Assembly: GCA_020912385.1 (NCBI GenBank)
Contig: CP087208.1
Span: forward strand, 186,001 to 250,000
DNA length: 64,000 bases
Origin: Neofusicoccum parvum
Lineage: Eukaryota > Ascomycota > Dothideomycetes > Botryosphaeriales > Botryosphaeriaceae
Direction of reading: 5' to 3'
The position numbers and the translations under genes are program-made. How positions within the stretch are numbered: the first letter of the stretch is position 1; the number at the start of each line of letters is the position of its first letter. Below the pieces are notes generated by a model. That model searched no databases. It had not been told where the DNA came from and saw only the letters and a list, made by a program, of their open reading frames with translations. Below, in pieces: positions 9,809-59,900 of the stretch.

Positions 9809-9822
9809 TAGTCTATTATATA
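9809..9822. repeat. Target-site copy TAGTCTATTATATA beside LINE A
   Basis: The 14 bp next to the 3' tail of LINE A recur, inverted, at 51767-51780 next to the 5' end of LINE C. Each LINE lacks this sequence at its other end. See the inversion finding. Confidence 0.75.
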
Positions 9823-10043
9823 GATAGATAAATTCATTTCTTCCCGATATAGCTCCCTTACGGGTCCATGCGGGGTTGGCTATCTGTAGTTATTTTACAC
9901 GAGGGGGAAAACCTTTTCGCCTAGCAAAAACCCCTCCTCTCGATCTGGGCATGATGTCTAATTCTGGTTCTGTTTTCCCTTCTTACCGGTAGCGGCTGCT
10001 GTGGCAGCCCTATATTCACCTACTAGCCCTATCCCTTTAGTCC

Positions 10044-13000
10044 TTATCCTCGTAGTTGTCCGGGTCCGAGTAGTCCTGGTGGTCCTCCTAGTTCCTCTTC
10101 CTGGCTGTCCTCCTGGATTAATTCCCTGGCTAGGCTAAACTGCTTGAGCAGCCCTAGGCGTAAGAACCAGTCTGTTGCTGCTTTGACTCCCTTTTTTGTA
10201 GAGAGAAGGGAGCGGTAGTCTGTAGTTTCCGCCTTTTGGAGCATCTGTGCCCTACCCTGTTGGAAGTGGGGGCAGAAGAGGAGGATGTGCTTTGGGGTTT
10301 GCCTATACTAGCCGCATGGGCAGGCGGGGCTAGGGTGTCCTGGCACCTTGCGCTTAGAGAGGAAGTCCTCCAGCCCAATATGCTTAGTACGCAGTAGAGT
10401 GGCGAGTGTGCTCTGTGGCTTAGACAGTTCGCTGTGAATTTGTCGAATCTTTGGGTTCCACTGTGTGCTCTGAGCCACTGGCTTGTACCGCCTTTCCTGG
10501 CTAGTGTACGTTGTCCATCTCTCCTTCCACTTCTTCCTATATGCTATGCGTAGCCTTGTTCGCTCCGGGAGGGTGGGGTAGCTGCCGAGAAGGGAGGTTA
10601 CCCTTGCTCTAAGTAGGGTTCTCCGAGCTGGGCCGGCTGGGCCTCTAGCGCCCAGAGTAGCCCGGGCTATCTGTTTGATGCTCTGGTAAGTTTCCTCTAC
10701 CACTGCTGCTACTGGGCCATCCCTAGCCCTAATAGTCTGGGCTAGTGTTAGTTCATCCAGGTGGAGTGAGAGCGGGGGGATCCCCGTCTCATGCTCTAAG
10801 GTTTATGTGCTGGTTGACTTGTACGCCCCTGAGATGGTACGAAGGCACTGGTTTTGAATCTTCTGTAGTGGCTGGATGGCTATTTTCCTCCACCCTGGGA
10901 TCCCCTCCGGGATATGCCACACCCCGCAGCCGTAGGTAAGGACTGGCCTCACCACTGCTGTATAGATATGACGGGCTTTAGTAAATGAGGCTCCCCAGGT
11001 GGATGCTGCGAGTCTAGAGAGGGATGTGTACTGCTTGAGTGCCCTGGCCCTAGTTTCCCTAATGTGAGGTCCCCATCTTAGCTTGTTATCTACATGGACT
11101 CCCAGGATCTTGACTGTAGGTTCTGGGTGTCCCGCAAATCCCGGGATGCGGATTCCTGCTGCCATATTGAATCTCTTTGGCCTTCTCGTGAAGTGAACGA
11201 GATGGTACTTGTCAGGCGAGAAGGTCGACCCGTGGGTAGCTGCCTAGTGTTCGCAGGTTCTATTAGCCTCCTCTAGCATCCTACAGTTTTGTTCTGTAGA
11301 TCTACTAAATGTAAGGATGTTGGTATCGTCTACAAAGCCAAGGGGGAAAGTGTTGCCCCTTTGGAGTTTTGTAAGTAGGTTAGAGGCAAAGAACAGATAG
11401 AGGATCGGGGACAGTGAGGATCCCTGGGGGATGCCTGTTGTGGTGTGGATTGGTTGGCTTGTAAAGTCCCTAAAGGACAGCTGAGTGGTGCGGTCCTGTA
11501 GGAAGGAGTGAGTGAATCTTTCTATCCAGGCTGGGAGCCTTGCCATCCTCATATTGTGGAGGAGTCTCTTGTGGGATACATGGTCGTATGCCCCTGAGAT
11601 GTCCAGACTGAGGACTGAGGCTACCAGCCTAGGATCTTACGCCCAGATAGTATGAATCTGTTCCGTAAGTAGGTCAAGAGCTGCTGCTACTGACCTGTTT
11701 CTCCTAGCTCCTATCTGTGTATCGGGGAGCAGTTTGTGGGCCTCAGTAGCCTGGGAGATCCGATCTGCTACAACCCTCTCAAGCAGCTTCCCTAGCGTAT
11801 TAAGTAGGACAATCGGTCTAAATGACTTGGCTTTAGTGTAGTCATCCCTCTGTGGTTTTCTAAGGACTACGGTAATAGAGCTTTTAAACTGCCTGGGGTG
11901 GTATGCAAGCGCTAGGCATTTCTAGAAGAGCCTGGTGAGTGGTCCACTTAGTGTCTGAGCACACTGCTTTAGGAACCTATTGATAATCTTGTCTGGGCCT
12001 GGTGCCTTATCTGGGGGAAGCTTCTTGATGGTGTGGAGGACCTACTCTTCGGCGAGGTCTTGGGGGATCTCTACTGGTACTGGGTATATGTACCCATCCA
12101 GGTCTGAGAGGTCGGTGGCCCTAGGAGGGGGGAAGAACTGGTTGGTAAGGATTTCTGCCTTGGCCTGATTGTCGTAGCGCAGTTGTCCATCTGCTCCCTG
12201 GAGGGGTAGGAACTAGGGTGGGGCTTATGGTTCTTGTACTTTTATTCTTGCCCACTTTGAGAGCTTCTAGAGTGTAGATGGGTCTGAGGTGATCTTAGCT
12301 ACTGTTCTACGCTATGCTTTTATTCTATCCCTTCTGATCTGCCTCTTCTTGCTGTTAGCAGTGGTTTGGTATGCTACCCAGTCCTCCTCCCTCCCTATGG
12401 CTGTCCACTTCCTTCTAGCTGCTCTAGCCTGGTTTACCAGGTCCGAACACTCCTTTGTCTATTGTATAGAGGCCCAGGGTAAGGGTCTCGCTACTAGGAT
12501 GGTCTCCTGGATTGTCCTTTCGATGGCCTCCTAGAGTAGTTTAGTGAAGTGATCTAGGTCTGCTTTAGTGTTAAGAGGGGCTACTTTAAGGTGTTTGAGC
12601 TTTATTTAGAGTACCTCATTGGTTCTCTTCCAGTCTGCTTTCTTCCACTGGGGCCTTGGGGGACGTGGTTCCGCGGGGGTAAGAGAAAAATCAAGTATAG
12701 TGAGGATAGGTAGGTGGTTAGAGGATGATTTAAGCTCCTAGCTAACTCTACAGCTAAGGATTCTCTCCTCTAGCCACCGTGATATAAAGACAAGGTCTAG
12801 AGTACTCTTACTACTACTATCTCTTCTAGTGATAGTGCCCCTTGGAAGGGCGAGGTTAAGATTAGCTGCGGTAGCTATCTCAATCAGGTTATCCGCTAGG
12901 GTGTGGTGTGTTAGAGAGGCTATACCTCCCTAGATAGGATGGTGGAGGTTAAAGTCCCCTAGGAGGATGTACTCCCCTGGTTTTCTAAGAGCTTCCGGTA

Positions 13001-13352
13001 GAAGAGATAGGGTTTCCAGAGCTGTACTAGTGTGAGAGGCTGGCGGGGGATTGTAGCAGTTATGGATATAGATTGTACGTGTCTTAGTGGTAAGGGATAG
13101 TGTAATAAGGTCTGGTGAGTAGACTATTACTTGCTAGGAGTCGGGGGCAATGGCCTTGCTTATGAAGAAGCAGGTTCTTGCCGTCCCCTCCTGAGGGAAA
13201 ACTGTGTGGTAGGTAGGGTGTCTTGCTATTATCTTGACCCTCGGGTTCCTCCACGGTTCCTAGATGGCTAGGATATGGTGGATCTTTGGGTCCACCTCCT
13301 TAAAGAACGGGAGCATCACCCTATTCTTACTCTTATAGACGTTGTACTGCAC
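10044..13352 (-). pseudogene. LINE A ORF2: AP-endonuclease and reverse transcriptase, RIP-inactivated
   Basis: 1103 codons in one frame from the same point as copies B and C (first shared codon GTG at 13352; the true start is unclear) to a TAA at 10044. Endonuclease first, then reverse transcriptase with FVDD in place of YADD, then a C-terminal Cys/His motif. The frame is interrupted by several in-frame stops where copy B has CAG or TGG. There is no length change relative to B or C, so the damage is point mutation only. The longest open pieces encode parts of the reverse transcriptase and C-terminus. Confidence 0.85.
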
Positions 13353-13372
13353 GATAGATAGAGAGCCTATAT

Positions 13373-14932
13373 CTAATATTGACTTCCTTCTATCTCTAAG
13401 TCAGGCTGCGGGGGGGTTGGTGGTGTAGGCTACGAGGAGGAGGGGGTTCCCGTAGGCTCCTCCCCCGAGGCATGCTAGGAGCTGTTGAGTCTAGTAAACC
13501 GCATTTAGTTGGGAGGCGGGGGGCGGCTTAGGTCCCTTGGCCTACCTAGCCCTCTCTTGGCCGGCTCCTCCTCTCTAGGCCTCTTCCTTGGCCCGACTGT
13601 CAACTAGTTGGTTTGGGGCTGTGTCTTGGCCATAGGGGATCCTACCCTATACCTCTCTGGAGTTGCCAGGCGGGCCTGGGTGGCCTTTACCTGGCATGCT
13701 CTGCGTGCTGGGCAGGCGTTGCTCTAGGCCGTGTGCTTTTGTGAGCAGTTTACACACTGCATTTTTTCCTTAGGGCACTCCTGGGTGTTATATGCCTTTG
13801 CACACTGGCCACACTTGGTCTCCCTTCTATAGTGGGTGGAGATGTGACCATAGTCCTGGCACTTAAAGCACTGGGTCACTGTAAAGGCTGTACTATAGTA
13901 TTCTACTGTGTGGAGAGCATAGTTACTAATAAGTCCTTTAGTAATAATCTGGTTGGCTGCCTCGGGGTCTATAGTGCTAAGGATAATGGCCGAGTGAGTT
14001 TTCCCCTCTAGGAGCTTCCTTTTTAGCCAGGCTAGCTTGCTGATACGAAGACTAGGGTGTAGGGTAAGGTTCTGATCCTGAAGGGTTTGGGCGGCCTGGG
14101 GATCCTTGATATCAATTCCTTCGAGGGGGACGTTGTGGACTAGCACTGAGTAGAGCTACTGGTTGGGACGGACTTCCCTGCCCAGTCCTGTAGTCCATTC
14201 CTGGTCCTGGAGGAGGGCTGCTCTGGTCTGAGTATCAGGCATAAAGAGCTTGATGTCCCCACTAGGGAGCTTCTTGGTAGCTAGCACCTTTTTATATGCT
14301 AGGCTTTTCCCTGCCTGAATCTTCTTAATAATGGCCTCGTTAGAGAGGTTTATGACCTCCTGTCTGTTGGTCTTGTCTGGGAAGTGTAGGGTAAGCTCAG
14401 TGGTAGCTGGGGGGGTAGGGGGCTTTAGGGCTGCTCGGGCTGCAATGTTGGCCCAGCTAGGCACTGCGGGCGTAGGAGTACTCTAGAGTCGGCTGACTGC
14501 CTTCTGGACTTGTTGTACTTCCTTAAGGATATCCTTAAGGCCGGGCTCCTTGGTGGTTGCCTCCTGGCATATAGAGATATGATCCTGGAAGATTGTCTTG
14601 GTAATGTCGAGAAAATTTTTTACCTGGCTGGAGAGGACTGAAGGGAGGCTAGCGGGTGCTTGTAGGGCTTAGAGGAGGGTGTCTGCTGTCTTTGATGCTC
14701 TTTTAACGTATTCTACGCCATACTGGATGCCCTGCGGTTTATTGGGGGTGCGCTGTGGTTGGGTAGAGGCGGTTGCTAGAGGGGGCTGTTCGCCCCTTCC
14801 TGCGGCCTCTACATCAACCACAACGCGGCTGTAGCTGCTCTGAGTGGTATTTTGAGTCTCGCTGGGCCTAGGAGAGTCCCTAGGGCCCTCTCCCGGCGCC
14901 GTAGCTTGGGATCGATTTTTTAGCGTGGTCAT
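13373..14932 (-). pseudogene. LINE A ORF1: nucleic-acid-binding Gag-like protein, RIP-damaged
   Basis: 520 codons including the stop, the same length as in copy C. Starts MTTLKNRSQ; a Pro/Thr-rich N-terminus is followed by a helical region and then a cluster of CCHC-type zinc knuckles at about residues 350-410 (CFKCQDYGH, then CGQC and CVNC units). Such ORF1 proteins bind element RNA in the ribonucleoprotein. Stops interrupt it, as in copy C but partly at other positions. Confidence 0.8.
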
Positions 14933-14951
14933 GTTTTTAAATTATGGGCAT

Positions 14952-16576
14952 GAAGTGAATCCTATTCTAATTTAGATTATTACTTATATTATTTATTCTA
15001 TACTTTCTACTTTTCCTCCACTGTTAGCTCCTACCTATGGTTTTTAATAGGAGCGTTTAGTTTTTTAATAGCTAGATTAGAGCTTCTTTCTCCTCTAGGT
15101 CTTCTAGCTCTAGTCCTGTATACTCCTACTAGGTAGGCCTTATAAAGTGTGTAGGTCTCCTTAGTAGTAGCTAAGGGTATTAGGCCACCTAGTGTATAGA
15201 GTCGCTATAGCGTAAGTAATAGTCCTTCTCCTTACGCTTATTTATTTCCTAACCATCTACCTATTTAATACAGCGTCCCTAAGCCACTCTAGCGGGTCTA
15301 GTAGGCTCCTAATCTATATTATCGTATTAAGGCGTCGTTAGTTTTAGCTACTTAGACTCTAGTAATAGTTGCTTAGACTCTACTGAGCTAACCTTATTTT
15401 AACCGCGCTACTAGCCTTACTACTAGCCTTACTAGGCTCTCTTCCTACTATTACGTAAGTTAAATGCTTCTAGTTAATCACTAACACGTTTTAGCTTAGT
15501 ATAGTAGTCCTTAAAGGACTGGCTTGTACTTCTAAGGCTAATTATACTATGTTAGAGCTCTTAACTAAGCCCTACTTCTAGGTAGGCCTTAAGAATCTTA
15601 TCTAGCTAGTAAGTACCTCCTACCTCTAGTACTAGTTTACGAAATTTAGTGAAGTATTCTATAAAAGACTTATTAGTTTAGCGTAGCTTATATAGCTTAC
15701 GCTAGGCCTTTTCTTACATATAAGGATCGCTAAATAATAGGTAGAGCTGATCTAGTAAGCGCTAGGCGGTTATATTACTTATATTAGTGCTAGCCTATAT
15801 CTAGGGCTATAGCTAGCGTGCGGCTTCGCCTCTAAGTTGGTTATAAAGTATAAAAAACTTAGTAGCCTTAGTATATTCCGTATAGTCCACTACGAGCTTT
15901 ACTTAGGCCTAAGTAATCTAAGGCTCTAGTTCGTCCCTATTACCTGAATATTCAGCTAGAGGGCCGAGATTCTTAGTAGGATTAGTCTTTATATACTGCT
16001 AATTATTATATTAGGCTAAAGTATTTCTAATTATCCTTACTCCTTCTTTCCTAGCCCCTTACTTAATAATTTTAGAGGGCTACGTAGATGGAGTTTAAGC
16101 GTCTTCTATCTTAAAGTAGTTCTCCTTCTCTTTCTTAAGCTATATAACTTCGTTAGTAATAAAGTCTATTCGTACTATTATCTACTATAGTATCTATATT
16201 ATTTCTTAAGGCTCTTAGGTCTACCGCTCTTAAGTCTACTACTCCTAAGTCTACTACTCTTAAGTCTACTATCCTTTAACTATTATCGTTGATCCTGTTG
16301 TCTCTAATAATTCTAGTAATTCTAGTGATTCCAGTGCGCGACTGTGCTAATAATCCGATATCTAGTAAGTCTAATAGGGATGAAGTCTTAGCTAATATTA
16401 GAGCTTAACCTTAGGATAATCGCTAAAAGATATATTACGCTATATACGTTAAGCTAAGACTTAAAGAGAAGAAGAAGAAGAAGAATAAAGAAAAGAACTT
16501 AAATATAAAGAGAGCTTAGTATTATATAACTACTAATAATCCTCTAAGGCTTCTCCTAAGGCTTTAGACTCTAATA
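14952..16576 (-). mobile_element. G2 gypsy chromovirus, 5' piece (LTR, leader, gag)
   Basis: On the minus strand this is the 5' LTR (16576-16396), self-complementary primer site (16383-16393), repeat-rich leader and gag of the same family as G1. It aligns with G1 47500-49136 in the same orientation and is heavily RIP-mutated. It stops at 14952 exactly where LINE A begins. The rest of the element (protease, pol, 3' LTR) is found at 56918-61230 in the opposite orientation beside LINE C. Confidence 0.85.
16396..16576 (-). repeat. G2 5' LTR (181 bp)
   Basis: Same length and ends as the G1 LTRs. Inner edge at 16396, outer edge at 16576, where it abuts a chromovirus fragment. No 5-bp duplication matches its partner LTR at 61230. 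Confidence 0.8.
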
Positions 16577-18789
16577 CTAGGCCTCTATAACTACTACCGC
16601 TAGTTTATTAAGAACTACTTAAGGATTATAAAACTACTTACCGACCTAACTAAGAATAAGGTAGCCTAGGCCTAGATATAAAAGTATAAGGCCGCCTTCT
16701 AAGTACTAAAGAATGCCGTCCGCTTAGACCTAGTACTTTAATATTTTAACCTAGTGAAGCCTATCTTCCTCGAAGTTAACTCTTCTAACTACGTTAGTAG
16801 AGGAGTCCTTTCGTAGAAGAATAAGAAAAGAAAGCTTTATCTAGTAGCCTACTTCTCTAAGAAGCTCTTAGATACGGAATATAATTATATAATCTACGAT
16901 AAGGAACTCCTAGCTATTATTTAAGCCTTTTAGGAATGAAGTCCTAAGTACCAGAGTGCCTAGGAGCCGATCTAGATGTTTACTAATTATAAGACCCTAA
17001 AAACGTTTATAACTAATAAGTAACTCTCGCGCCGCTAGATCTAATAAGCGGAGAAACTTATAGAGTATAACTTTAAGATTATCCCTATTATAGGAAAGAA
17101 GAATAAGAGGGCCGATACTTTCTCCTATTAGGAATAGAACCTACTAGCTAATAAATCTAACTCTCGTCTTATCTCTATAAACCATATAGTTCTCTCTCTA
17201 GGAAGCTTTACTCTCGCTCCTCTTAAGCTACTTAAAGACCTAGACCTCCCTATAGAGCTACGGACCGCTAACTAGGTAGATAACGCCTTAACGGCTATCT
17301 ACTAGAACGTTAGTAAGCACCCTAAATACTTAATCTACGATAGCCTACTTATCTTCTAAGAGAACCGCCTTATAGTACCCTAGAACGACCGCCTTAGGCT
17401 AAGGCTTATCTAGGCTGCTTACCGCCCCCCTACTACTAGATACCCGGATATCTAGCGTACCTAGAAGCTCTTAAAGGAGAGGTACTACTAGAATAGTATA
17501 AAAAAGGTAGTAAAGTAGTACGTATAGAACTACTACTCCTATAAGAAGGCTAAATATAAAATAGAATCCTATAATAGCCTACTTAAGCCGCTCCCTATTA
17601 GGGACTAGCCCTAGAAGCACCTATCCTATAACTTTATTACCAAGTTACTAAACTATAAAGGATTTACCGCCGTTCTAGTAGTAGTAGACTGGTTCTTAAA
17701 AATACGGTACTTTATCCCCTACTACGATACTACCACTACGAGTTAAATAGCGCAGCTCTTTAGAGATAATATCTAGAAGTATTATAGCCTACTAGACACT
17801 ATTATCTTAGATTAAGGGCCCTAGTTTATTAGCGAATTCTAGTAAGGCCTCTATAAGCTCCTAAAGATTAACCACCGCCTTTTAATAGCCTACCATCTAG
17901 AGATGGACGGGTAAACAGAAAATACTAATAAAGAAATAGAAATCTACCTCTATTACTACGTTAGCTATTATTAGGACGACTAGATAGACTGGCTTACCTC
18001 TATAGAATATACTACTAATAGAAACGTCTCTACCTCCTCTACCGTAAGCCCCTTCTTTATAGTCTATAGATATAAACCCCGTCTATCCTTTAACTAGACG
18101 CTTATCCCTCTAGCGCCCACCGCTGCGGCTACCTAGAGCAGGGAAAGAACCAACGAGATAGTAAATAAGATATAAAAGGTCTAGGAATTTATAAAATTCT
18201 ACCTATAGTAGTCCTAGGAGAAGTAAGTAGAGTTCGCTAACTATTATAGGAAGGATATATTCTACGAGGTAGGAGATAAGGTGTTTATCTCTACTAAGAA
18301 TATAGATTTAAACCGGCCCTTAAGGAAGCTAGGATGGACGCGGATTAAGCCGTATTCTATTATTAAGAAAGTAAGAACCGCTTACCGCCTTTAACTACCT
18401 CTAGGTATTAACCGCGGCAATATATTCCATCTAAGTAAGCTTATAAGGGACGATAGTAACCTTCTTCTAGACTAGATACCGGAGCCGTAGCCCGTAGTAT
18501 AGGTAGATAATAAAGATAAATATATAGTAGAGTCTATTCTCGACTCCCGTTATACTAGTAAGGGGAAGAGACTCTAATATAGGGTCTAGTAAGTAGACTA
18601 GTCACCCGACCCTTAATAGTATCTAGTAGATAACTTCAACCACGCGGCTTAAAAACTTAAGGAATTTTATAACTCCTACCTAGCGAAGCCTAGTCTACTA
18701 AAGGAACTTAAATAGTAGATTTAAGAAAATAATAAAGCTATTAAGTAAGATTATTACTAGAAGCTCTCGCTTAAGAGGAGGGGTAATAT
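16577..18789 (+). mobile_element. Chromovirus fragment: end of RT, RNase H, integrase, chromodomain
   Basis: A degraded pol reads left to right: the tail of the reverse transcriptase (NYYRxFIKN), RNase H with EYNYIIYDKELLAII (near 16870-16930), an integrase core (17260-18010), then a C-terminal chromodomain (18510-18700, beginning KYIVESILDSRYTSKGK). Frequent TAG/TAA codons replace Gln and Trp. The catalytic centre of the reverse transcriptase and everything 5' of it is missing, and the left end abuts the G2 LTR. It may be the other half of the fragment at 61231-63922. Confidence 0.75.
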
Positions 18790-19494: not shown

Positions 19495-19507
19495 AAGTTT
19501 CTAACTA
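19495..19507. repeat. LINE B target-site duplication, left copy
   Basis: AAGTTTCTAACTA, repeated exactly at 23071-23083. The uninterrupted site is visible in G2 (about 60898-60912) and, inverted, in G1 (about 43530-43545). Confidence 0.9.
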
Positions 19508-22500
19508 TTAGATATAGGCTCTCTATCTATCGTGCAGTACAACGTCCATAAGAGTAAGAATAGGGTGATGCTCCCGTTCTTCAAGGAGGTGGACCCAAAG
19601 ATCCACCATATCCTGGCCATCCAGGAACCGTGGAGGAACCCGAGGGTCAAGATAACAGCAAGACACCCTGCCTACCACACAGTTTTCCCTCAGGAGGGGA
19701 CGGCAAGAACCTGCTTCTTCATAAGCAAGGCCATTGCCCCCGACTCCTGGCAAGTAATAGTCTACTCACCAGACCTCATTACACTATCCCTTACCACTAA
19801 GACACGTACAATCCATATCCATAACTGCTACAATCCCCCGCCAGCCTCTCACACTAGTACAGCTCTGGAAACCCTATCTCTTCTACCGGAAGCTCTTAGA
19901 AAACCAGGGGAGCACATCCTCCTAGGGGACTTTAACCTCCACCATCCTATCTGGGGAGGTATAGCCTCTCTAACACACCACACCCTAGCGGATAACCTGA
20001 TTGAGATAGCTACCGCAGCTAATCTTAACCTCGCCCTTCCAAGGGGCACTATCACTAGAAGAGATAGTAGTAGTGAGAGTACTCTAGACCTTGTCTTTGT
20101 ATCACGGTGGCTAGAGGAGAGAATCCTTAGCTGTAGAGTCAGCCAGGAGCTTGAATCATCCTCTGACCACCTACCTATCCTCACTATACTTGATTTTTCT
20201 CTTACCCCCGCGGAACCACGTCCCCCAAGGCCCCAGTGGAAGAAAGCAGACTGGAAGAGAACCAATAAGGTACTCCAAATAAAGCTTAAACACCTTAAAG
20301 TAGCCCCTCTTAACACTAAAGCAGACCTGGATCACTTCACTGAACTGCTCCAGGAGGCCATCGAAAGGACAATCCAGGAGACCATCCCAGTAGCGAGACC
20401 CTCACCCTGGGCCTCTATACAATGAACAAAGGAGTGTTCGGACCTGGTAAACCAGGCTAGAGCAGCCAGAAGGAAGTGGACAGCCACAGGGAGGGAGGAG
20501 GACTGGGTGGCATACCAAACCACTGCTAACAGCAAGAAGAGGCAGATCAGAAGGGATAGAATAAAAGCATGGCGCAGAACAGTAGCTGAGATCACCTCAG
20601 ACCTATCTACACTCTGGAAGCTCTCAAAGTGGGCAAGAACAAAAGCACAAGAACCACAAGCCCCACCCCAGTTCCCACCCCTCTAGGGAGCAGATGGACA
20701 ACTGCGCTACGACAATCAGGCCAAGGCAGAAATCCTTACCAACTAGTTCTTCCCCCCTCCTAGGGCCACCGACCTCTCAGACCTGGATGGGTGCATATAC
20801 CCAGTACCAGTGGAGATCCCCCAAGACCTCGCCGAAGAGCAGGTCCTCCACACCATCAAGAAGCTTCCCCCAGATAAGGCACCAGGCCCAGACAAGATTA
20901 TCAATAGGTTCCTAAAGCAGTGTGCTCAGACACTAAGTGGACCACTCACCAGGCTCTTCCAGAAATGCCTAGCGCTTGCATACCACCCCAGGCAGTTTAA
21001 AAGCTCTATTACCGTAGTCCTCAGGAAACCACAGAGGGATGACTACACTAAAGCCAAGTCATTTAGACCGATTGCCCTACTTAATACGCTAGGGAAGCTG
21101 CTTGAGAGGGTTGTAGCAGATCGGATCTCCCAGGCTACTGAGGCCCACAAACTGCTCCCCGATACACAGATGGGAGCTAGGAGAAACAGGTCAGCAGCAG
21201 CAGCTCTTGACCTACTTACGGAACAGATTCATACTATCTGGGCGCAAGATCCTGGGCTGGTAGCCTCAGTCCTCAGTCTGGACATCTCAGGGGCATACGA
21301 CCATGTATCCCACAAGAGACTCCTCCACAATATGAGGATGGCAAGGCTCCCAGCCTGGATAGAAAGATTCACTCACTCCTTCCTACAGGACCGCACCACT
21401 CAGCTGTCCTTTGGGGACTTTACAAGCCAACCAATCCACACCACAACAGGCATCCCCCAGGGATCCTCACTGTCCCCGATCCTCTATCTGTTCTTTGCCT
21501 CTAACCTACTTACAAAACTCCAAAGGGGCAACACTTTCCCCCTTGGCTTTGTAGACGATACCAACATCCTTACATTTAGTAGATCTACAGAACAAAACTG
21601 TAGGATGCTAGAGGAGGCTAATAGAACCTGCGAACACTGGGCAGCTACCCACGGGTCGACCTTCTCGCCTGACAAGTACCATCTCGTTCACTTCACGAGA
21701 AGGCCAAAGAGATTCAATATGGCAGCAGGAATCCGCATCCCGGGATTTGCGGGACACCCAGAACCTACAGTCAAGATCCTGGGAGTCCATGTAGATAACA
21801 AGCTGAGATGGGGACCTCACATTAGGGAAACTAGGGCCAGGGCACTCAAGCAGTACACATCCCTCTCTAGACTCGCAGCATCCACCTGGGGAGCCTCATT
21901 CACTAAAGCCCGTCATATCTATACAGCAGTGGTGAGGCCAGTCCTTACCTACGGCTGCGGGGTGTGGCATATCCCGGAGGGGATCCCAGGGTGGAGGAAA
22001 ATAGCCATCCAGCCACTGCAGAAGATTCAAAACCAGTGCCTTCGTACCATCTCAGGGGCGTACAAGTCAACCAGCACACAAACCTTGGAGCATGAGACGG
22101 GGATCCCCCCGCTCTCACTCCACCTGGATGAACTAACACTAGCCCAGACTATTAGGGCTAGGGATGGCCCAGTAGCAGCAGTGGTAGAGGAAACTTGCCA
22201 GAGCATCAAACAGATAGCCCGGGCTACTCTGGGCGCTAGAGGCCCAGCCGGCCCAGCTCGGAGAACCCTACTTAGAGCAAGGGTAACCTCCCTTCTCGGC
22301 AGCTGCCCCACCCTCCCGGAGCGAACAAGGCTACGCATAGCATATAGGAAGAAGTGGAAGGAGAGATGGACAACGTACACTAGCCAGGAAAGGCGGCACA
22401 GGCCAGTGGCTCAGAGCACACAGTGGAACCCAAAGATTCGACAAATTCACAGCGAACTGTCTAAGCCACAGAGCACACTCGCCACTCTACTGCGTACTGA

Positions 22501-23070
22501 GCATATTGGGCTGGAGGACTTCCTCTCTAAGCGCAAGGTGCCAGGACACCCTAGCCCCGCCTGCCCATGCGGCTGGCATAGGCAAACCCCAAAGCACATC
22601 CTCCTCTTCTGCCCCCACTTCCAACAGGGTAGGGCACAGATGCTCCAAAAGGCGGAAACTACAGACTACCGCTCCCTTCTCTCTACAAAAAAGGGAGTCA
22701 AAGCAGCAACAGACTGGTTCTTACGCCTAGGGCTGCTCAAGCAGTTTAGCCTGGCCAGGGAATTAATCCAGGAGGACAGCCAGGAAGAGGAACCAGGAGG
22801 ACCACCAGGACTACTCGGACCCGGACAACTACGAGGATAAGGACTGAAGGGATAGGGCTAGTAGGTGAATGTAGGGCTGCCACAGCAGCCGCTACCGGTA
22901 AGAAGGGAAAACAGAACCAGAATTAGACATCATGCCCAGATCGAGAGGAGGGGTTTTTGCCAGGCGAAAAGGTTTTCCCCCTCGTGTAAAATAACTACAG
23001 ATAGCCAACCCCGCATGGACCCGTAAGGGAGCTATATCGGGAAGAAATGAATTTATCTATCTATCTATCT
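19508..23070 (+). mobile_element. LINE copy B, 5'-truncated to ORF2
   Basis: Starts at the last bases of ORF1 and carries all of ORF2, the 3' untranslated region and a (TATC)n tail (about 23052-23070). It is flanked by a perfect 13-bp duplication. It is the least RIP-damaged of the three large copies. 5' truncation is the usual product of incomplete target-primed reverse transcription. Confidence 0.92.
19532..22840 (+). pseudogene. LINE B ORF2: endonuclease and reverse transcriptase, few stops
   Basis: 1103 codons in one frame. Residues 1-230 are an APE-type endonuclease with QEPW (about 31), GDFNLHHP (about 131) and SDHLPI (about 210), which nicks the target. The reverse transcriptase (about 430-760) has LDISGAYDHVSHKRL, GIPQGSSLSP (about 639) and FVDD (about 672). 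The C-terminus has a Cys/His motif (CPCG...H...C, about 1010-1030). A TGA at 20423-20425 stands where copy C has TGG, and there are at least two TAG codons between there and 20750. From 20810 to the end (676 codons) it is open. I see no RNase H domain after the reverse transcriptase. The start codon is unclear: the frame reads upstream into ORF1 without an obvious ATG. Confidence 0.9.
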
Positions 23071-43199: not shown

Positions 43200-43380
43200 T
43201 ATTAGGGCTTAACCTTAGGATGATCACTGAAAGGTTTATTGCGCTATGTACATTAAGCTAAGACTTAAAGAGAAGAAGAAGAAGAAGAATAAAGAAGAGA
43301 ACTTAAATATAAAGAGGGCTTAGTATTACGTGACTACTAATAATCCTCTAAGGCTTCTCCTAAGGCTTTAGACTCTAATA
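43200..43380 (-). repeat. G1 3' LTR (181 bp)
   Basis: Pairs with 48956-49136. Confidence 0.92.
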
Positions 43381-43413
43381 TCACTCCCCCCCCCTTCCCC
43401 TCTTTCCGTTTTT
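43381..43413 (-). promoter_or_regulatory. G1 polypurine tract
   Basis: On the minus strand a purine run (GGAAAGAGGGGAAGGGG and further G) ends a few bases before the 3' LTR. It is the expected start site for plus-strand DNA synthesis. G2 (61023-61048) and G5 have the same tract. Confidence 0.8.
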
Positions 43414-43899
43414 AGATAGTATCGGGTTTAATTCTCAGTGGGGGCGGATCTTCTTCCATTATAGAGGGGTATACAAGGTGAAAAAGCGAAGGACTTTGAT
43501 ATTAAACGGCTATATAGCGTAGTTGGAAACTTAGCTGACCGGTAGCATACGACGGTAGTACGTTACGTTGAGGTGGTGATATCTCTTAGTTAATAGGCTG
43601 TTATAGGCTTATCAACTAGCTATTAAATTAAGGGCCTGTCTATTAACAGGAAGAGGGTTCTCCGGTACTAGTAGATTCCGTCTAGTAGTCTGTAATGCCC
43701 GACTAGGTGACCTAGTACTATCGTCTCACAGTTCACTGCTGGTTTATAGGAAGGATTAATATCACCTAGATTAGGCTCGGCTTCGGCCGGGCTAAACCGC
43801 TTGTCTTTTTACTCACTACTAGTTCTCGTTTAGTTGCCTATTAGTCCAATCTTAGTGCTAGAGTTCCTATAGGGTTCGTTGCTGGTTCCTTTATTCTAG

Positions 43900-46800: not shown

Positions 46801-47490
46801 TAGTATAAGAAGCTCATTACGAGACATATTATATAAAGGTCCCTATGGGGTATTAGGTGTCTTGCCGTTGGTATCCTTTTCCAGTTCAATTTAATGGTTA
46901 ATTCCAGGTCGGTACGGTGGGAGTTTTTCCGCCTCTTTCTTATCAAATAGACTGATCCGTTTAGGGTCTACCCAGCTAGGTAACTGGCTTTAGAAATCTA
47001 TAAGGGGCTTCTCCTATAAGGCCTTATTGATATCCGCGAGGCTGGCTATAAAGATCTAATATCCTTTCTTTTTTCTAAGCCTTATAAGGTGGTAAAAGGC
47101 AGCAGCTCTAATTAGCTTGCCTTAAGACTTAGGGAGATTAGTGTCTTACTTTACAGTCAATCCAGTATCCTTAAAGGTGATAGTTCGTTCGCTCTAGTTA
47201 AGTACTACTTTTTCTTACACTATCTAGGGGCTCCCTAGCATAAGATCGCATCTAGAGAGTTTTAGGACGATATAGAAGAATATACGCTTTTAATGATGAC
47301 TCTTAATATCGACTTCAGCCTAGGCAACTTCATTAATCTTCCACCCAGTTAGTATTAGTCCATCCAGTGTCCTTAGTGAGATTTTAATACGCGGGAGGTT
47401 ACAGCGTTCAGCGAATTTATAGCTTATTATAGCGTAGAATTCATAACTAGTATCAGTAAGAGCTTTTCTAAAAGTCTCTTTATTAATCAT
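43900..47490 (-). pseudogene. G1 Pol: protease, RT, RNase H, integrase, chromodomain
   Basis: Protease near 47480-47330 (DTS at the usual DTG position, followed by YEFYAIIS). Reverse transcriptase 46827-46000, with an uninterrupted piece containing [19 protein letters not shown] (46827-46627) and the catalytic YIDDILI near 46415-46380. RNase H about 45990-45600 with [18 protein letters not shown]. Integrase about 45130-44280, with the Cys pair CNVCGRTK and the catalytic D...D...E core. C-terminal chromodomain about 44080-43920 (VVEAILGERI then YxVKWEGYTRLI), which in chromoviruses guides integration to marked chromatin. TAG/TAA codons at Gln/Trp positions break it. No frameshift was needed between the domains I checked. 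Confidence 0.85.
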
Positions 47491-47599
47491 AACTAAAGTG
47501 AGAAGTAAATCCTATTCTAATTTAGGTTGCTATTTATACTATTCATCCTATACTTCCTACTTTTCCTCCACTGTTAGCTTCTACCTACGATTTCCAACA

Positions 47600-48790
47600 G
47601 GAGCTTTCAGTTTTCTAACTACTAGGAGGAGGTCTTATTATCCTCTATATCTTCTAATTACGGTCCCACGTGTCCCTCCTGCTAAGTAGGCCTTGTAAAG
47701 CGTGTAGGTCTCCTTAGTGATAGCTAGGGGCATTAGGTAATTAGATGCGTTAAGTCGCCGTAGCGTAGGTAACGGTGTTCCTCCTTTCGTTTCTACATCT
47801 CTTAATCATTCACCCACTTAATACGGCGCCCTTGGGCTGCCTTAGCTGGCCTAGTAGGTTCCTAGTCTATATTATCGTGTTAGAGCGTCGTTGTTTTTGG
47901 CTGCTTAGACCCTGGCTGCCTGCTAGTGGACCCTACCGAGCTAACCTTATTCTAACCACGCTACCACCCTTCCTACCAGCCCTGTTGGGCTTTCTTGCCA
48001 TTATTACGTACATAAAATGCCTCTAGTTGATCACTAACGCGTTTCAGCTCAGTGTAGTAGTCCTTAAAGGACTGGCTTGTACTTCTAAGGCTAATCATGC
48101 TGTGCTAAAGCTCTTGACTGAGTCCTGCTTCTAAGTAAGCTTTTAGGATCTCATCTAGCTAGTGGGTACCTCCTGCCTCCAGTACTAGTTTGCGAAACTC
48201 GGTAAAGTATTCTATAAAAGGCTTATTGGTTTGGTGTAGCTTATACAGCTTGCGCTGGGCCTTTTCTTATACATAGGGGTCGCTAAATGATAGGCGTAGT
48301 TGGTCTAGTAGGCACTGAGCAGTTATATTACTTATGTTAGTGGTAGCTTATATCTAGGACTGTAGCTGACGCGCTGCCTCGCCTCTAAGTTGATTATAGA
48401 GCATGAAGAACTTAGTTGCCTCGTTATAGTTATTATAATCTACGGAGAGCTTTGCCAAGGCCTAAGAGATCTAGGGTTCGAGTTCATCCCTATTGCCTAA
48501 GAACTTAGCGAGGGGGCTAAGGTTCTTAGTAGGCTTGTTATTCTAAGAGGAAGGCGTATGTTCTTAAGGCTAGGCTATAGCCTGTGCTTAGAGAGGCTCG
48601 GTCGGTTGTTACTCGGAAATTATAGTTCTAGTTTAAGATGTCTGTTGCCCTTTTTCTAGCTATTCCACCTTGCTATTTAGTGTGCTTATCTAAGCCATTA
48701 TCTACTGTAGCATCTGCTTTATTTCTTAGGATTCTTAAGCCCGTTACTCCTCCTTATACTATAGGTTAACCATTCTAAGAATCCCTTGCT
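47600..48790 (-). pseudogene. G1 Gag region
   Basis: Minus-strand remnant with the typical retrotransposon Gag signature around 48290-48130: a KLYKLHQT stretch, then FxEYFTEFRKLVLEAGG. Stops occur throughout. I see no clear CCHC knuckle. Confidence 0.65.
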
Positions 48791-48797
48791 TCGTGTT

Positions 48798-48900
48798 GCT
48801 TCTAGTGATTCCAGTAGTTCTAGTAATTCCAGTGATTCCAGTGATTCTAGTGATTCTAGTAATTCCAGTGATTCCAGTGATTCTAGTGATTCCAGTGCGA
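48798..48900 (-). repeat. 9-bp minisatellite in the G1 leader
   Basis: About eleven units of CCAGTGATT with C/T variants (plus-strand reading). G2 has only about four units at 16297-16335 in the same place. Confidence 0.85.
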
Positions 48901-48942
48901 GACTGTGCTAATAATCCAGTTCTAATAAGTCCAGTGGGTTTG

Positions 48943-48953
48943 AAGTCTTAGCT
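48943..48953 (-). promoter_or_regulatory. G1 primer-binding site, self-complementary to its LTR
   Basis: Two bases after the 5' LTR the minus strand reads AGCTAAGACTT. Its exact reverse complement AAGTCTTAGCT lies inside the LTR (plus 49012-49022). The same pair is kept in G2 (16383-16393 and 16452-16462). This is the arrangement of Tf1/sushi elements, where the 5' end of the transcript folds back to prime reverse transcription. Confidence 0.7.
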
Positions 48954-48955
48954 AT

Positions 48956-49136
48956 TATTAGGGCTCAACCTTAGGATAATCACTGAAAGGTTTATTACGC
49001 TATGTACGTTAAGCTAAGACTTAAAGAGAAGAAGAAGAAGAAGAATAAAGAAGAGAACTTAAATATAAAGAGGGCTTAGTATTACGTAACTACTAATAAT
49101 CCTCTAAGGCTTCTCCTAAGGCTTTAGACTCTAACA
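48956..49136 (-). repeat. G1 5' LTR (181 bp)
   Basis: Minus strand begins TGTTAGAGTC and ends CCCTAATA (CA changed to TA). A pyrimidine-rich tract lies before the presumed transcript start at AAGTCTTAGCT. Confidence 0.92.
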
Positions 49137-51712: not shown

Positions 51713-51766
51713 ATATATATACTAGCGCTATTCTTATTATTTAAAAATAGTATAGTTTCTATAGAT

Positions 51767-51780
51767 TATATAATAGACTA
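51767..51780. repeat. Target-site copy beside LINE C, inverted relative to 9809-9822
   Basis: TATATAATAGACTA, the reverse complement of TAGTCTATTATATA at 9809-9822. Confidence 0.75.
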
Positions 51781-51794
51781 CATACAAAAAAAAC

Positions 51795-53354
51795 ATGACC
51801 ACGCCAAAAAATCGATCCCAAGCTACGGCGCCGGGAGAGGGCCCTAGGGACTCTCCTAGGCCCAGCGAGACTCAAAATACCACTTAGAGCAGCTACAGCC
51901 GCGTTGTGGTTGATGTAGAGGCCGCAGGAAGGGGCGAACAGCCCCCTCTAGCAACCGCCTCTACCCAACCACAGCGCACCCCCAATAAACCGCAGGGCAT
52001 CCAGTATGGCGTAGAATACGTTAAAAGAGCATCAAAGACAGCAGACACCCTCCTCCAAGCCCTACAAGCACTCGCTGGCCTCCCTTCAGTCCTCTCCAGC
52101 CAGGTAAAAAATTTTCTCGACATTGCCAAGACAATCTTCCAGGATCATATCTCTATATGCTAGGAGGCAACCACCAAGGAGCCCGGCCTTAAGGATATCC
52201 TTAAGGAAGTGCAACAAGTCCAGAAGGTAGTCAGCCGACTCTAGAGTACTCCTACGCCCGTAGTACCTAGCTGGGCCAACATTACAGCCCGAGCAGCCCT
52301 AAAGCCCCCTACCCCCCCGGCCACCACTGAGCTTACCCTACACTTCCCAGACAAGACCAACAGACAGGAGGTCACAAACCTCTCTAACGAGGCCATTATT
52401 AAGAAGATTCAGGCAGGGAAAAGCCTAGCATGCAAAAAGGTGCTAGCTGCCAAGAAGCTCCCTAGTGGGGACGTTAAGCTCTTTGTGCCTGATGCTCAGA
52501 CCAGAGCAGCCCTCCTCCAGGACCAGGAATGGACTACAGGACTGGGCAGGGAAGTCCGTCCCAATCAGCAGCTCTACTCAGTGCTAGTCCACAACGTCCC
52601 CCTCGAAGGAATTGACATCAAGGATCCCCAGGCCGCCTAAACCCTTCAGGATCAGAACCTTACCCTACACCCTAGTCTTCGTATCAGCAAGCTAGCCTGG
52701 CTAAAAAGGAAGCTCCTAGAGGGGAAAACTCACTCGGCCATTATCCTTAGCACTACAGACCCCGAGGCAGCCAACTAGATTATTACTAAAGGACTTATTA
52801 GTAACTATGCTCTCCACACAGTAGAATACTATAGTACAGCCTTTACAGTGACCCAGTGCTTTAAGTGCTAGGACTATGGTCACATCTCCACCCACTGTAG
52901 AAGGGAGACCAAGTGTGGCCAGTGTGTAGAGGCACATAACACCCAGGAGTGCCCTAAGGAAAAAATGCAGTGTGCAAACTGCTCATAAAAGCACACGGCC
53001 TGGAGCAACGCCTGCCCAGCACGCAGAGCATGCCAGGTAAAGGCCACCTAGGCCCGCCTGGCAACTCTAGAGAGGTATAGGGCAGGATCCCCTGTGGCCA
53101 AGACACAGCCCCAAACTAACTGGTTGACGGTCGGGCCAAGGAAGAGGCCTAGAGAGGAGGAGCCGGCCAAGAGAGGGCTAGGTAGGCTAAGGGACCTAAG
53201 CCGCCCCCCGCCTCCCAACTAAATGCGGTTTACTGGACTCAACAGCTCCTAGTATGCCTCGGAGGAGGAGCCTACGGGAACCCCCTCCTCCTCGCAGCCT
53301 ACACCACCAACCCCCCCGCAGCCTGACTCAGAGATGGAAGGAAGTCAATATTAG
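51795..53354 (+). pseudogene. LINE C ORF1: Gag-like protein with zinc knuckles, RIP-damaged
   Basis: 520 codons including TAG at 53352-53354. Starts MTTPKNRSQ. About ten internal TAG/TAA codons replace Gln or Trp. Knuckle residues CFKC, CGQC and CANC remain readable near 52858-52990. The stop overlaps the region where ORF2 begins in another frame. Confidence 0.85.
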
Positions 53355-53374
53355 ATATAGGCTCTCTATCTATC

Positions 53375-56300
53375 GTGCAGTACAACGTCTATAAGAGTAA
53401 GAATAGGGTGATGCTCCCGTTCTTCAAGGAGGTGGACCCAAAGATCCACCATATCCTAGCCATCCAGGAACCGTGGAGGAACCCGAGGGTCAAGATAACA
53501 GCAAGACACCCTGCCTACCACATAGTTTTCCCTCAGGAGGGGACGGTAAGAACCTGCTTCTTCATAAGTAAGGCCATTGCCCCCGACTCCTGGCAAGTAA
53601 TAGTCTACTCACCAGACCTCATTACACTATCCCTTACCACTAAGACACGTACAATCCATATCCATAACTGCTACAATCCCCCGCCAGCCTCTCACACTAG
53701 TACAGCTCTGGAAACCCTATCTCTTCTACCGGAAGCTCTTAGAAAACCAGGGGAGCACATCCTCCTAGGGGACTTTAACCTCCACCATCCTATCTGGGGA
53801 GGTATAGCCTCTCTAACACACCACACCCTAGCGGATAACCTGATTGAGATAGCTACCGCAGCTAATCTTAACCTCGCCCTTCCAAGGGGCACTATCACTA
53901 GAAGAGATAGTAGTAGTGAGAGTACTCTAGACCTTGTCTTTGTATCACGGTAGCTAGAGGAGAGAATCCTTAGCTGTAGAGTCAGCTAGGAGCTTGAATC
54001 ATCCTCTGACCACCTACCTATCCTTACTATACTTGATTTTTCTCTTACCCCCGCGGAACCACGTCCCCCAAGGCCCCAGTGGAAGAAAGCAGACTGGAAG
54101 AGAACTAATGAGGTACTCTAAATAAAGCTCAAACACCTTAAAGTAGCCCCTCTTAACACTAAAGCAGACCTGGATCACTTCACTGAACTGCTCCAGGAGG
54201 CCATCGAAAGGACAATCCAGGAGACCATCCCAGTAGCGAGACCCTCACCCTGGGCCTCTATACAATGGACAAAGGAGTGTTCGGACCTGGTAAACCAGGC
54301 TAGAGCAGCCAGAAGGAAGTGGACAGCCACAGGGAGGGAGGAGGACTGGGTGGCATACTAAACCACTGCTAATAGCAAGAAGAGGCAGATCAGAAGGGAT
54401 AGAACAAAAGCATAGCGCAGAATAGTAGCTAAGATCACCTCAGACCCATCTACACTCTGGAAGCTCTCAAAGTGGGCAAGAACAAAAGCACAAGAACCAT
54501 AAGCCCCACCCCAGTTCCCACCCCTCTAGGGAGCAGATGGACAACTGCGCTACGACAATCAGGCCAAGGCAGAAATTCTTACCAACCAGTTCTTCCCCCC
54601 TCCTAGGGCCACCGACCTCTCAGACCTGGATGGGTGTATATACCCAGTACCAGTAGAGATCCCCCAAGACCTCGCCGAAGAGCAGGTCCTCCATACCATC
54701 AAGAAGCTTCCCCTAGATAAGGCACCAGGCCCAGACAAGATTATCAATAGGTTCCTAAAGCAGTGTGCTCAGACACTAAGTGGACCACTCACCAGGCTCT
54801 TCCAGAAATGCCTAGCGCTTGCATACCACCCTAGGCAGTTTAAAAGCTCTATTACCGTAGTCCTCAGGAAACCACAGAGGGATGACTACACTAAAGCCAA
54901 GTCATTTAGACCGATTGCCCTACTTAATACGCTAGGGAAGCTGCTTGAGAGGGTTGTAGCAGATCGGATCTCCTAGGCTACTGAGGCCCACAAACTGCTC
55001 CCCGATATACAGATGGGAGCTAGGAGAAACAGGTCAGCAGTAGCAGCTCTTAACCTACTTACGGAACAGATTCATACTATCTAGGCGCAAGATCCTGGGC
55101 TGGTAGCCTCAGTCCTCAGTCTGGACATCTCAGGGGCATACGACTATGTATCCCACAAGAGACTCCTCCACAATATAAGGATGGCAAGGCTCCCAGCCTG
55201 GATAGAAAGATTCACTCACTCCTTCCTACAGGACCGCACCACTCAGCTGTCCTTTAGGGACTTTACAAGCCAACCAATCCACACCACAACAGGCATCCCC
55301 CAGGGATCCTCACTATCCCCGATCCTCTATCTGTTCTTTGCCTCTAACCTACTTACAAAACTCCAAAGGGGCAACACTTTCCCCCTTGGCTTTATAGACG
55401 ATACCAACATCCTTACATTTAGTAGATCTACAGAACAAAACTATAGGATGCTAGAGGAGGCTAATAGAACCTGCGAATACTAGGCAGCTACCCACGGGTC
55501 GACCTTCTCGCCTAACAAGTACCATCTCGTTCACTTCACGAGAAGGCCAAAGAGATTCAATATAGCAGCAGGAATCCGCATCCCGGGATTTACGGGACAC
55601 CCAGAACCTACAGTCAAGATCCTGGGAGTCTATGTAGATAACAAGCTGAGATAGGGACCTCACATTAGGGAAACTAGGGCCAGGGCACTTAAGCAGTGCA
55701 CATCCCTCTCTAGACTCGCAGCATCCACCTGGGGAGCCTCATTCACTAAAGCCCGTCATATCTATACAGCAGTGGTGAGGCTAGTCCTTACCTACGGCTA
55801 CGGGGTGTGGTATATCCCGGAGGGGATCCCAGGGTGGAGGAAAATAGCCATCCAGCCACTGTAGAAGATTCAAAACTAGTGCCTTCGTACTATCTCAGGG
55901 GCGTACAAGTCAACCAGCACATAAACCTTAGAGCATAAGACGGGGATCCCTCCGCTCTCACTCTACCTAGATGAACTAACACTAGCCCAGACTATTAGGG
56001 CTAGGGATGGCCCAGTAGCAGTAGTGGTAGAGGAAACTTGCCAGAGCATCAAACAGATAGCCCGGGCTACTCTAGGCGCTAGAGGCCCAGCCGGCCCAGC
56101 TCGGAGAACCCTACTTAGAGCAAGGGTAACCTCCCTTCTCGGTAGCTGCCCCACCCTCCCGGAGCGAACAAGGCTACGTATAGCATATAGGAAGAAGTGG
56201 AAGGAGAGATGGACAACGTACACTAGCCAGGAAAGGCGGTACAGGCCAGTGGCTTAGAGCACACAGTGGAACCCAAAGATTCGACAAATTCACAGCGAAC

Positions 56301-56683
56301 TGTCTAAGCCACAGAGCACACTCGCCACTCTACTGCGTACTGAGCATATTGGGCTGGAGGACTTCCTCTCTAAGCGCAAGGTGCCAGGACACCCTAGCCC
56401 CGCCTACCCATGCGGCTGGCATAGGCAAACCCCAAAGCACATCCTCCTCTTCTGCCCCCACTTCCAACAGGGTAGGGCACAGATGCTCCAAAAGGCGGAA
56501 ACTACAGACTACCGCTCCCTTCTCTCTACAAAAAAGGGAGTCAAAGCAGCAACAGACTGGTTCTTACGCCTAGGGCTGCTTAAGCAGTTTAGCCTGGCCA
56601 GGGAATTAATCTAGGAGGACAGCCAGGAAGAGGAACCAGGAGGACCACCAGGACTACTCAGACCCGGACAACTACGAGGATAA
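53375..56683 (+). pseudogene. LINE C ORF2: endonuclease and reverse transcriptase, RIP-damaged
   Basis: 1103 codons, the same length as in A and B. The endonuclease part is open for 192 codons (53375-53953), then a TAG replaces TGG at 53951. Many further TAG codons follow. FVDD is changed to FIDD (near 55391). The C-terminal Cys/His motif is retained (near 56401-56460). The same frame extends upstream past 53375 without a clear ATG, as in the other copies. Confidence 0.9.
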
Positions 56684-56917
56684 GGACTGAAGGGATAGGG
56701 CTAGTAGGTGAATATAGGGCTGCTACAGCAGCCGCTACCGGTAAGAAGGGAAAACAGAACCAGAATTAGACATCATGCCTAGATCGAGAGGAGGGGTTTT
56801 TGCCAGGCGAAAAGGTTTTCCCCCTCGTATAAAATAACTACAGATAGCCAACCCCGCATGGACCCGTAAGGGAGCTATATCGGGAAGAAATGAATTTATC
56901 TATCTATCTATCTATCT

Positions 56918-59900
56918 AGGATTCACTTCTCACTTCAGTTATAATTAATAAAGAGACTTTTAGAAAAGCTCTTACTAATATAGGTTGTAAATTCTACGCT
57001 GTAATGAGCTATAAATTCGCTAAACGCTATAACCTCCCGTATATTAAAATCTTACCAAGGACACTGGATAGACTAATACTAACTAGGTAGAAGATCAATG
57101 AAGTTACCTAGGCTAAAGTCGATATTAGGGGTTATTATTAAAAGCGTATATTCTTCTATATCGTTCTAAGACTCTCTAGCTGTAATCTTATACTAGGAAG
57201 CCCCTAGATAGTATAAGAAAAAGTAGTACTTAACTAGAGCGAATAAACTATCACCTTTAAGGATACTAGATTAATTATAAAGTAAGACACTGATCTCCTT
57301 AAGCCTTAAGGTAAGCTAATTAGAGCTACTACCTTTTACTACCTTATAAGGCTTAGGAAAAAGAAGGGATATTAGATCTTTATAGCTAGCCTTACGGATA
57401 TTAATAAGGCCTTATAGGAGAGGCCCCCTATAGATTTTTAAAGCCAGCTGCCTAGCTGGGTAGACCCTAAACAGATCAGTCTATTTAATAAGAAAGAGGC
57501 GGATAAACTCCTACTATACCGACCTAGAATTAACCACTAAATTAAACTAGAAAAGGATACTAACGGTAAGATACCTAATGCCTTATAGGGACCTTTATAT
57601 AATATATCTCGTAATAAGCTTCTTATACTAAGGAAGACTCTTAACGAGCTACTAGATAAAGGCTTTATTTATATAAGTAACTCGCTAGTAGTAGCACCTA
57701 TCCTCTTTATAAAGAAACCTAGAGGAGGCCTTTATTTCTACTATAACTACCGGGCTCTTAATTAGATTATAAGAAAGGACCGCTATCCTCTACTACTAAT
57801 CTAGGAGACACTTAATTGAATTAGTAAGACTAAGTAGTTTACGAAGCTCGACGTGAGTACTACCTTCTACCGGATACGAATTACGGAAGGAAGCGAGTGG
57901 TTAACGGTATTCTAAACACGCTTTAGGCTCTTTAAATAGCTAGTAATACTATTTAGACTGGTAAACGCGCCAAGCACCTTTTAATAGTATATTAACTAGA
58001 CCCTAAAGGACTTTCTAGACGACTTTATCTTAGCTTACGTTAACGACATCCTAATCTTTACAGATGGATCGCGCCGGGAGCACCGCGAGAAGGTAAATAA
58101 GGTACTAGAGAAGCTAGATACTATAGGCCTATAACTTAACCTAAAGAAATACGAATTTAAAGTCCAGTCCACTAAGTATCTTAGGTACATTATCGAGGCC
58201 GAATAAGGCATCTGTATGGATCTAGAGAAGGTTAGAGTAATTTAAGAATAGAAAGCCCTAATAACTATAAAGAGGGTACTTAGATTCTTTAGCTTTACTA
58301 ATTTTTACTAAAGGTTTATTAAGGGGTTTTTAAACCTAGTATCTCCCCTAGTCTCCCTAATAAGAAAGAACACCGTTTTCTAATAGAGTTAAGAGGCTAA
58401 TACCGTATTTAAGAAACTAAAGAAGGCCTTTATTACTATACTAGTCCTTATATAATTCGATCTAGAGCGAGAAATAATCCTCGTAACGGACTTATCTAGT
58501 TACTATACAGGAGGAGTACTCTAATAATTTAATAATAACGGCTTTCTACGACTAGTAGCGTTCTTTTTAAAGAAGAATCTCCTAGTAGAATACAACTACC
58601 CGATCTATAATAAGGAACTACTTACAGTGGTTAAGTATTTACGCTAGTAGGATACCAAACTAAAAGGACTTTATTAGTTTAAGATTTTCACTAATTATAA
58701 GAACCTAGAATACTTTACTACAGTAAGAAGGCTTTCTAAAAGGTAGATTTAATAGTAGAGAGAGCTTAGCCGCTTCTCCTTTATTATTAAATATACCCTA
58801 GGGAAAACTAATAGATTGGTAGACGTATTAACAAGAAGGGACTAAGACTTACCTATAATAGATATAGATAAGAGACTTAAATAAAGAACAGCTTAATTAC
58901 TTCAGTTAATACCCCACGGATTAGTCCTTAATACTAGATCACTAGAGGACCCTAAAGAACAAGAATAGAGTAATAAAGAGTCACTTCTATCTAAAGAAGC
59001 TATAGTAGTTAAACCTTAATAAGTATAACTAGGATAACAGGTACGAGAACCTCCTTCCCTAGAGGATTAATAGTAAGAGGCACTCTAGTAGAACTAGATA
59101 TTAAGGCAACTCTAAAAAGTAGTATAGTAAGAAGAAAGAATATTTCCTCTAGAGTTTACTATAAAGTTCAAGGTCTCAATCACTAAGTGCTTACTAGATA
59201 ACTAAGGGAGCCTCCTCTTTAGGGATAGAAAATAGGTACTAGACTCTAAGCCACTACAAACGAGAATTATTTAAGAGATATACGACTCCCCCTTCTTAGT
59301 ATATTTTAGATATATCCAAACAGTCTCTCTCGTAGCAAGGCATTTCTTCTAGCTAGGATTTATTAATAATATCCGGAGGTTCTACCGGAACTGTAATATC
59401 TATAGAAGAACTAAGGTCTAGAGGGATAGAAAGCAAGGACTACTTAAGCCATTACTAGTACTAAGCCGTTAATAGAGAGAGATCTCTATTAATTTTACTA
59501 GACTACTACTATCTAGTAACGGTTACGAAATACTTATAGTAATAACTAACCGCTTAGGAAAAGGAGTAATCCTTAAGGCCTACCTAAATACTAAAACGGA
59601 AACCATTACAAGGCTGTTTATTAGATACTTCTACCGGAATTATAGTATCCCAGTAGTAATCGTATCTAATAGAGGAATATAATTTATAAGCCTTCTTTAG
59701 CAACGTATTTATTAACTACTTAAGATTAAGAGACGTATCTTAACGGCCTACTACTCCTAAACGGATAGATCAACGGAAAGAATAAATACTAAAGTAGTAA
59801 GGAAACTCGTATTATTTATAGATTACTACTAGTAAGACTAGGCGGACTAGTTACCAGTTATTCAGCTGGCCCTTAATAGAAGAACGTTAATAATAACTTA

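Follow-up and report, generated by a model that had tools for sequence, protein, structure and literature searches.

Exchanged target duplications around two inverted LINE copies suggest inversion by ectopic recombination in an AT-rich island of Neofusicoccum parvum

Two near full-length copies of one LINE, referred to as A and C, lie in opposite orientation on contig C3 of the Neofusicoccum parvum genome (44.0 Mb in 18 contigs). The question raised by this locus is whether the DNA between these copies was inverted by recombination, or whether their unusual flanks arose by independent insertion, by another route of repair or in assembly. On the sequence available, inversion by ectopic recombination between the two inverted copies is, in our judgement, highly probable.

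The window, i.e., the whole stretch of 64,000 nucleotides that was analysed, corresponds to C3:186001-250000, and positions are numbered from its first letter. An AT-rich island extends from approximately 9.8 kb to approximately 68 kb, with 26–43% GC in 1-kb bins apart from the LINEs within it, which are 51–52% GC, and is flanked by GC-rich arms of mostly 50–72% GC. Left of the island, a dioxygenase frame (8596-9540, minus strand) matched a Neofusicoccum ribis protein with 98% identity along 66% of the frame. A single tRNA was found with Rfam, and no broken host gene was recognised at a breakpoint among the ten window frames scanned.

LINE copies and their target duplications

Copy A (9817-14938, minus strand) and copy C (51789-56907, plus strand) are 97% identical over 5.1 kb, while copy B (19506-23064, plus strand), which is 5'-truncated and bordered by a 13-bp duplication of its own, served as a control. 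Matches to endonuclease (PF14529/PF03372) and RVT_1 (PF00078) domains placed the family among non-LTR retrotransposons, and its 3' end carries a short tandem TCTA tail. The match started past LINE position 1500 in 16 of 29 copies, indicating 5' truncation, although separate 5' pieces were not checked copy by copy. The element may be a fungal Tad1-like LINE. Endonuclease and RVT_1 domains, 5' truncations, target duplications and the TCTA tail are common to Tad1-like non-LTR retrotransposons and this LINE; in contrast with them, its 534-aa first frame had no Pfam match, and in the one fully scanned copy no RNase H match reached the threshold.

At least 41 genome matches to the LINE were listed, and flanks were analysed for 29 copies. 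Set aside were one copy with an incomplete 3' end, 11 more distant matches (72–79% identity) and the 5'-end matches C15:876075 and C15:877713, the lists of LINE and 5'-end matches being lower bounds with 40 candidates scored for each. One copy on C9 is split by a gypsy element and a separate locus supplied its 5' part; this copy was entered twice, giving 30 rows for the 29 copies. A duplication of 11–18 bp was noted around 23 of the 29 copies; those without one of at least 11 bp were A, C, C10c, C12a, C2 and C18b, with 7-bp words in the case of C2 and C18b. No duplication of its own was found around A or C, where the longest words were 5 and 6 bp, and the flanks matched crosswise instead, over 13 and 14 bp.

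The first of these words, target duplication X (TAGGATTCACTTC), was present at the 5' end of A (14952-14964, minus strand) and the 3' end of C (56917-56929, plus strand). Within it, AGGATTCACTTC, which extends to 13 bp with T, occurred in the window only at 14952-14963 (minus) and 56918-56929 (plus). The second, target duplication Y (TAGTCTATTATATA, 14 bp), had just two occurrences in the window, one at the 3' end of A (9809-9822, plus strand), where it overlaps the ambiguous LINE tail, and the other at the 5' end of C (51767-51780, minus strand). Both lengths are upper estimates because bases at the 3' junction may belong either to the LINE tail (TCTA repeats) or to the target. The original prediction that the flanks of A and C are unmatched within each element and matched across the two was thus borne out, as were its positions for Y and its comparison of the shared words with the true duplication of B; its positions for X agreed at 14952-14963 and fell one base short on the C side, where the word ends at 56929 and not 56928.

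Among 868 ordered pairs of the 30 rows, the longest words were those of C to A (14 bp) and A to C (13 bp), and only these two showed a match of at least 10 bp at both junctions; words of 12, 11 and 10 bp were seen in three other ordered pairs, in none of them at both junctions. No further exchanged pairs were found among the 29 copies.

Several other observations were made on LINE junctions. Near full-length LINEs at C10:557800-565300 and C2:3793400-3800900 were without clear duplications of their own and partnerless among the 29 copies. The flanks of copy C10c, which has no duplication of its own, were two different repeats. At C9:2460500-2474000, a LINE split by a gypsy retained a 16-bp target duplication across its pieces. 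Between the duplication and the LINE, A (14939-14951) and copy C14d (L027 1255-1265) have a similar short extension, which may represent a 5' end missing from most copies.

Elements interrupted at the two insertion sites

Duplication X lies in a gypsy element, G2, which is in two parts at 14952-16585 (plus; LTR approximately 16396-16585) and 56917-61235 (minus; LTR approximately 61041-61230), with strands given relative to a comparison copy, G1 (43200-49134), that was arbitrarily taken as plus and is bordered on either side by the 5-bp duplication CTAGA. On G1, the right part of G2 (14952-16585) and the reversed left part (56917-61235) met at 47502-47514, and the overlap was the 13 bp of X. 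Thus, the uninterrupted site that had been predicted near 47490-47510 of G1 was located at 47502-47514, with one transition. In other paralogous copies, the uninterrupted site was exact (C16a, C14 and C16b) or likewise differed by one transition (C8).

Repeat-induced mutation does not cause transversions. Over the right 700 bp of G2 from the site, transversions numbered 0 to C16a, C16b, C14 and C8, 1 to C4, 26 to G1 and 28 to C12, and by these counts this stretch clearly belongs to a subfamily other than that of G1. Over the left 700 bp, no transversions were counted to C16a, C8, C4, C14 or C16b (only 169 bp for the last), against 2 each to G1 and C12. The left 700 bp appears to fit the same subfamily as the right, a weak assignment because no more than 2 transversions and 2 gap positions underlie it. 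Among the LTRs compared, those of G2 were mutually closest (95.6% identity, one transversion; next 93.9%). A chance meeting of two unrelated gypsies exactly at the LINE site was considered and not favoured, since transversions assign both sides to type I, the right one clearly and the left one weakly. Farther out, the left part was nearer to G1, with 2 transversions in 1484 bp and none in the following 2638 bp, than to C4, with 13, from which G2 is taken to be a mosaic of subfamilies. A clean 5-bp duplication was not found around G2, the outer flanks of which, CTACT and CTAGG, mismatch.

Outside both LTRs of G2 lies a second LTR retroelement, E, in which matches to protease, reverse transcriptase, RNase H and integrase were found. 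The stretches that directly adjoin these LTRs (16586-17700, plus; 61236-62400, minus; the extent searched and not that of the element) were searched separately across the genome, and each search returned 16 matches, consisting of the window, 12 substantial loci and either 3 short matches (first part) or 3 fragments (second part). The 12 substantial loci were identical in both searches, with one locus partial in each. At all 12, the two parts were arranged start to start and pointing apart with 526–530 bp between them, whereas in the window 44.6 kb separated them and they shared one direction (both plus). Flipping the segment between A and C restored the order seen at all 12 other loci. Neither half differed by any transversion from the C12 or the C18 copy of E, while the C11 copy was more distant (15 and 28).

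Alignment of E to these three copies put the starts of the two flanks 524 bp apart, and G2 thus replaces about that much of E. In the E copies, CTACT (C18 and C12) and CTAGG (C12 and C11, with one transition in C18) are at two different places. The mismatched outer flanks of G2 would be explained if two gypsies had inserted in E and recombined, and G2 may be the product of such an earlier event, in which the piece of E between the insertions was lost. The missing 524 bp or so of E, together with the mismatched flanks, indicates that something else also happened at G2. Apart from this, six copies of E (C18:564586, C16:679426, C16:480545, C11:14393, C9:2197985 and C6:2577529) had identical scores in both searches, which suggests a young, nearly identical group.

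These results bear directly on the idea that there was no inversion and that A and C inserted independently at sites sharing words by chance, perhaps through a target preference. Gypsy sequence also adjoins LINE B and copy C10c, and shared repeat flanks are therefore conceivable. Against this, A and C would then lack duplications of their own, unlike 23 of 29 copies, with both words lying at the junctions, and a matching split of E is present in the window but absent from the 12 other loci; independent insertion can hardly account for the locus. A preference of the LINE for one gypsy site was ruled out by the order of E and by the varied sites among the 23 copies with duplications.

The second insertion site could be read from a paralogue. 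When the 119 bp left of A (9698-9816) were searched against the genome, a single paralogue was found, at C3:257503-257621 and in reverse orientation, which reads through site Y (corresponding to 9698-9822, plus strand, in the window). This paralogue continues through TAGCCTATTATATA, which differs from the Y word by one transition, into ATCTATA, as does the flank of C, and the two diverge after these 7 bases; the frequency of this 7-mer in the island is 0.0005 per position. Such read-through of the Y site lends modest support to an inversion. The 9698-9816 stretch itself is at the left edge of the island, while its inverted paralogue is approximately 62 kb off, approximately 3.5 kb past the right edge, in a less GC-rich 1-kb bin.

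Exchange within the LINEs

Mutations in A and C were labelled by comparison with four less mutated LINE copies, which gave 85 changes in A only, 74 in C only and 24 more common to both. Repeat-induced point mutation is expected to give C>T or G>A changes, mostly in a CA/TG context. The changes observed were as expected of this process, since all 159 single-copy changes were C>T or G>A and the context was CA/TG for 102 of 109 changes in A and 92 of 98 in C (summed over bins).

A switch in labels was noted at LINE position 3250, with an A:C ratio of 69:37 to the left and 16:37 to the right, and the interval within 2 log units was 2695-3527, i.e., 11412-12244 in A (best position 11689) and 54483-55315 in C (best position 55038). 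The log-likelihood ratio (LLR) of the switch, 8.80, was matched by 26 of 20000 label shuffles and was the largest among the 28 pairs of eight copies (next pair 7.08); it was also reached by 38 of 158 circular label shifts, a weak control because shifting keeps the two-state signal. The longest tract of A-C identity within the interval was 137 bp (3389-3527). We infer that the switch near LINE 2.7–3.5 kb probably marks the crossover point and that A and C are probably chimeric. If the switch is real, the LINE that inserted in G2 would have been the more mutated one. If it marks the crossover, the inverted segment would take in the 5' parts of both LINEs and measure 42–44 kb, within the 37–47 kb originally proposed.

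Strand ratios of C>T to G>A changes were alike in the 5' part of A and the 3' part of C (37:34 and 19:15) and unlike in the 5' part of C and the 3' part of A (34:6 and 4:10). Mutation strand was rejected as proof of chimerism, as it fits only one of the two inferred parents.

The sequence of events that we favour is as follows. Two copies of one non-LTR retrotransposon would have inserted independently and in opposing orientation within an AT-rich island of C3 that is degraded by mutation, one entering G2 with duplication X and the other entering the left edge of the island with duplication Y. A crossover between them, probably at LINE 2.7–3.5 kb, would then have inverted the 42–44 kb between the exchange points, leaving two chimeric LINEs with exchanged duplications and both G2 and the surrounding E split. 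Two insertions followed by recombination, as in the original prediction, are favoured because this is the only reading found that explains the exchanged duplications, the split G2, the split E, the Y paralogue and the label switch together.

Inversion by end joining or by replication template switching, with breakpoints in the LINEs, has nothing specific in its favour beyond the fact that a repair pathway is not identifiable from sequence alone. The alignment of A with C is gap-free over 5122 bases, so nothing was lost or gained at the switch, which fits homologous exchange, and a repair route of either other kind is considered very unlikely.

The mis-joined or collapsed assembly that was originally offered as the alternative deserves more weight. 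If the true order were uninverted and the assembler had jumped from one copy to the other within each LINE, the assembly would likewise show exchanged flanks, chimeric LINEs and a divided G2 and E, and inverted repeats of 5.1 kb at 97% identity are present for such a switch. However, C3 has telomere repeats at both contig ends and the window is gap-free with no N, which suggests a long-read assembly, and the aligned copies differ at 162 positions and share no identical tract longer than 170 bp, so that reads of more than 5 kb should resolve them. An assembly error was therefore judged unlikely, and an event in the cell is the better account.

Overlapping with inversion by recombination between A and C is the possibility that the segment flips back and forth, both orientations being present among nuclei or isolates and one having been assembled. 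The inverted copies are still 97% alike, but the label switch fits one exchange point and varied repeat exchanges should have blurred it; we regard repeated flipping as improbable. It is similarly doubtful that the inverted LINE pair acts as a live switch, in which lightly mutated LINEs remain alike enough to recombine inside a degraded island and the mutation pattern records the exchange points.

Comparison with known inversions and significance

Ectopic recombination between inverted transposon copies is already known from Drosophila. The Galileo-generated inversion 2z3 of Drosophila buzzatii was ascribed to such recombination by the authors of that study, and homologous copies in opposite orientation at both breakpoints and exchanged target duplications are found as they are for A and C (PMC2775673). 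Both Galileo copies are chimeric, while A and C are only probably so; Galileo is a cut-and-paste DNA transposon with 7-bp duplications as opposed to a non-LTR retrotransposon with words of 11–18 bp in other copies; and the uninverted chromosome was sequenced, whereas here 42–44 kb in a repeat island are concerned and the reference consists of paralogues and other repeat copies (PMC2775673). Among open-licence PMC papers, exchanged target sites together with inversion and LINE were met in Drosophila papers, the phrase 'swapped target site duplication' was absent, and no paper was found that treats transposable elements along with structural variation and inversion in Neofusicoccum parvum.

At this locus, the breakpoints, the two insertion sites and the probable crossover interval can all be recovered from a single genome. 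Repeats that have diverged through repeat-induced mutation are regarded as poor recombination partners. The recombination partners here would have been the lightly mutated LINEs and not the surrounding, heavily mutated gypsies. The combination of exchanged duplications, the order of neighbouring repeats and a switch in mutation labels could be used genome-wide to count such events.
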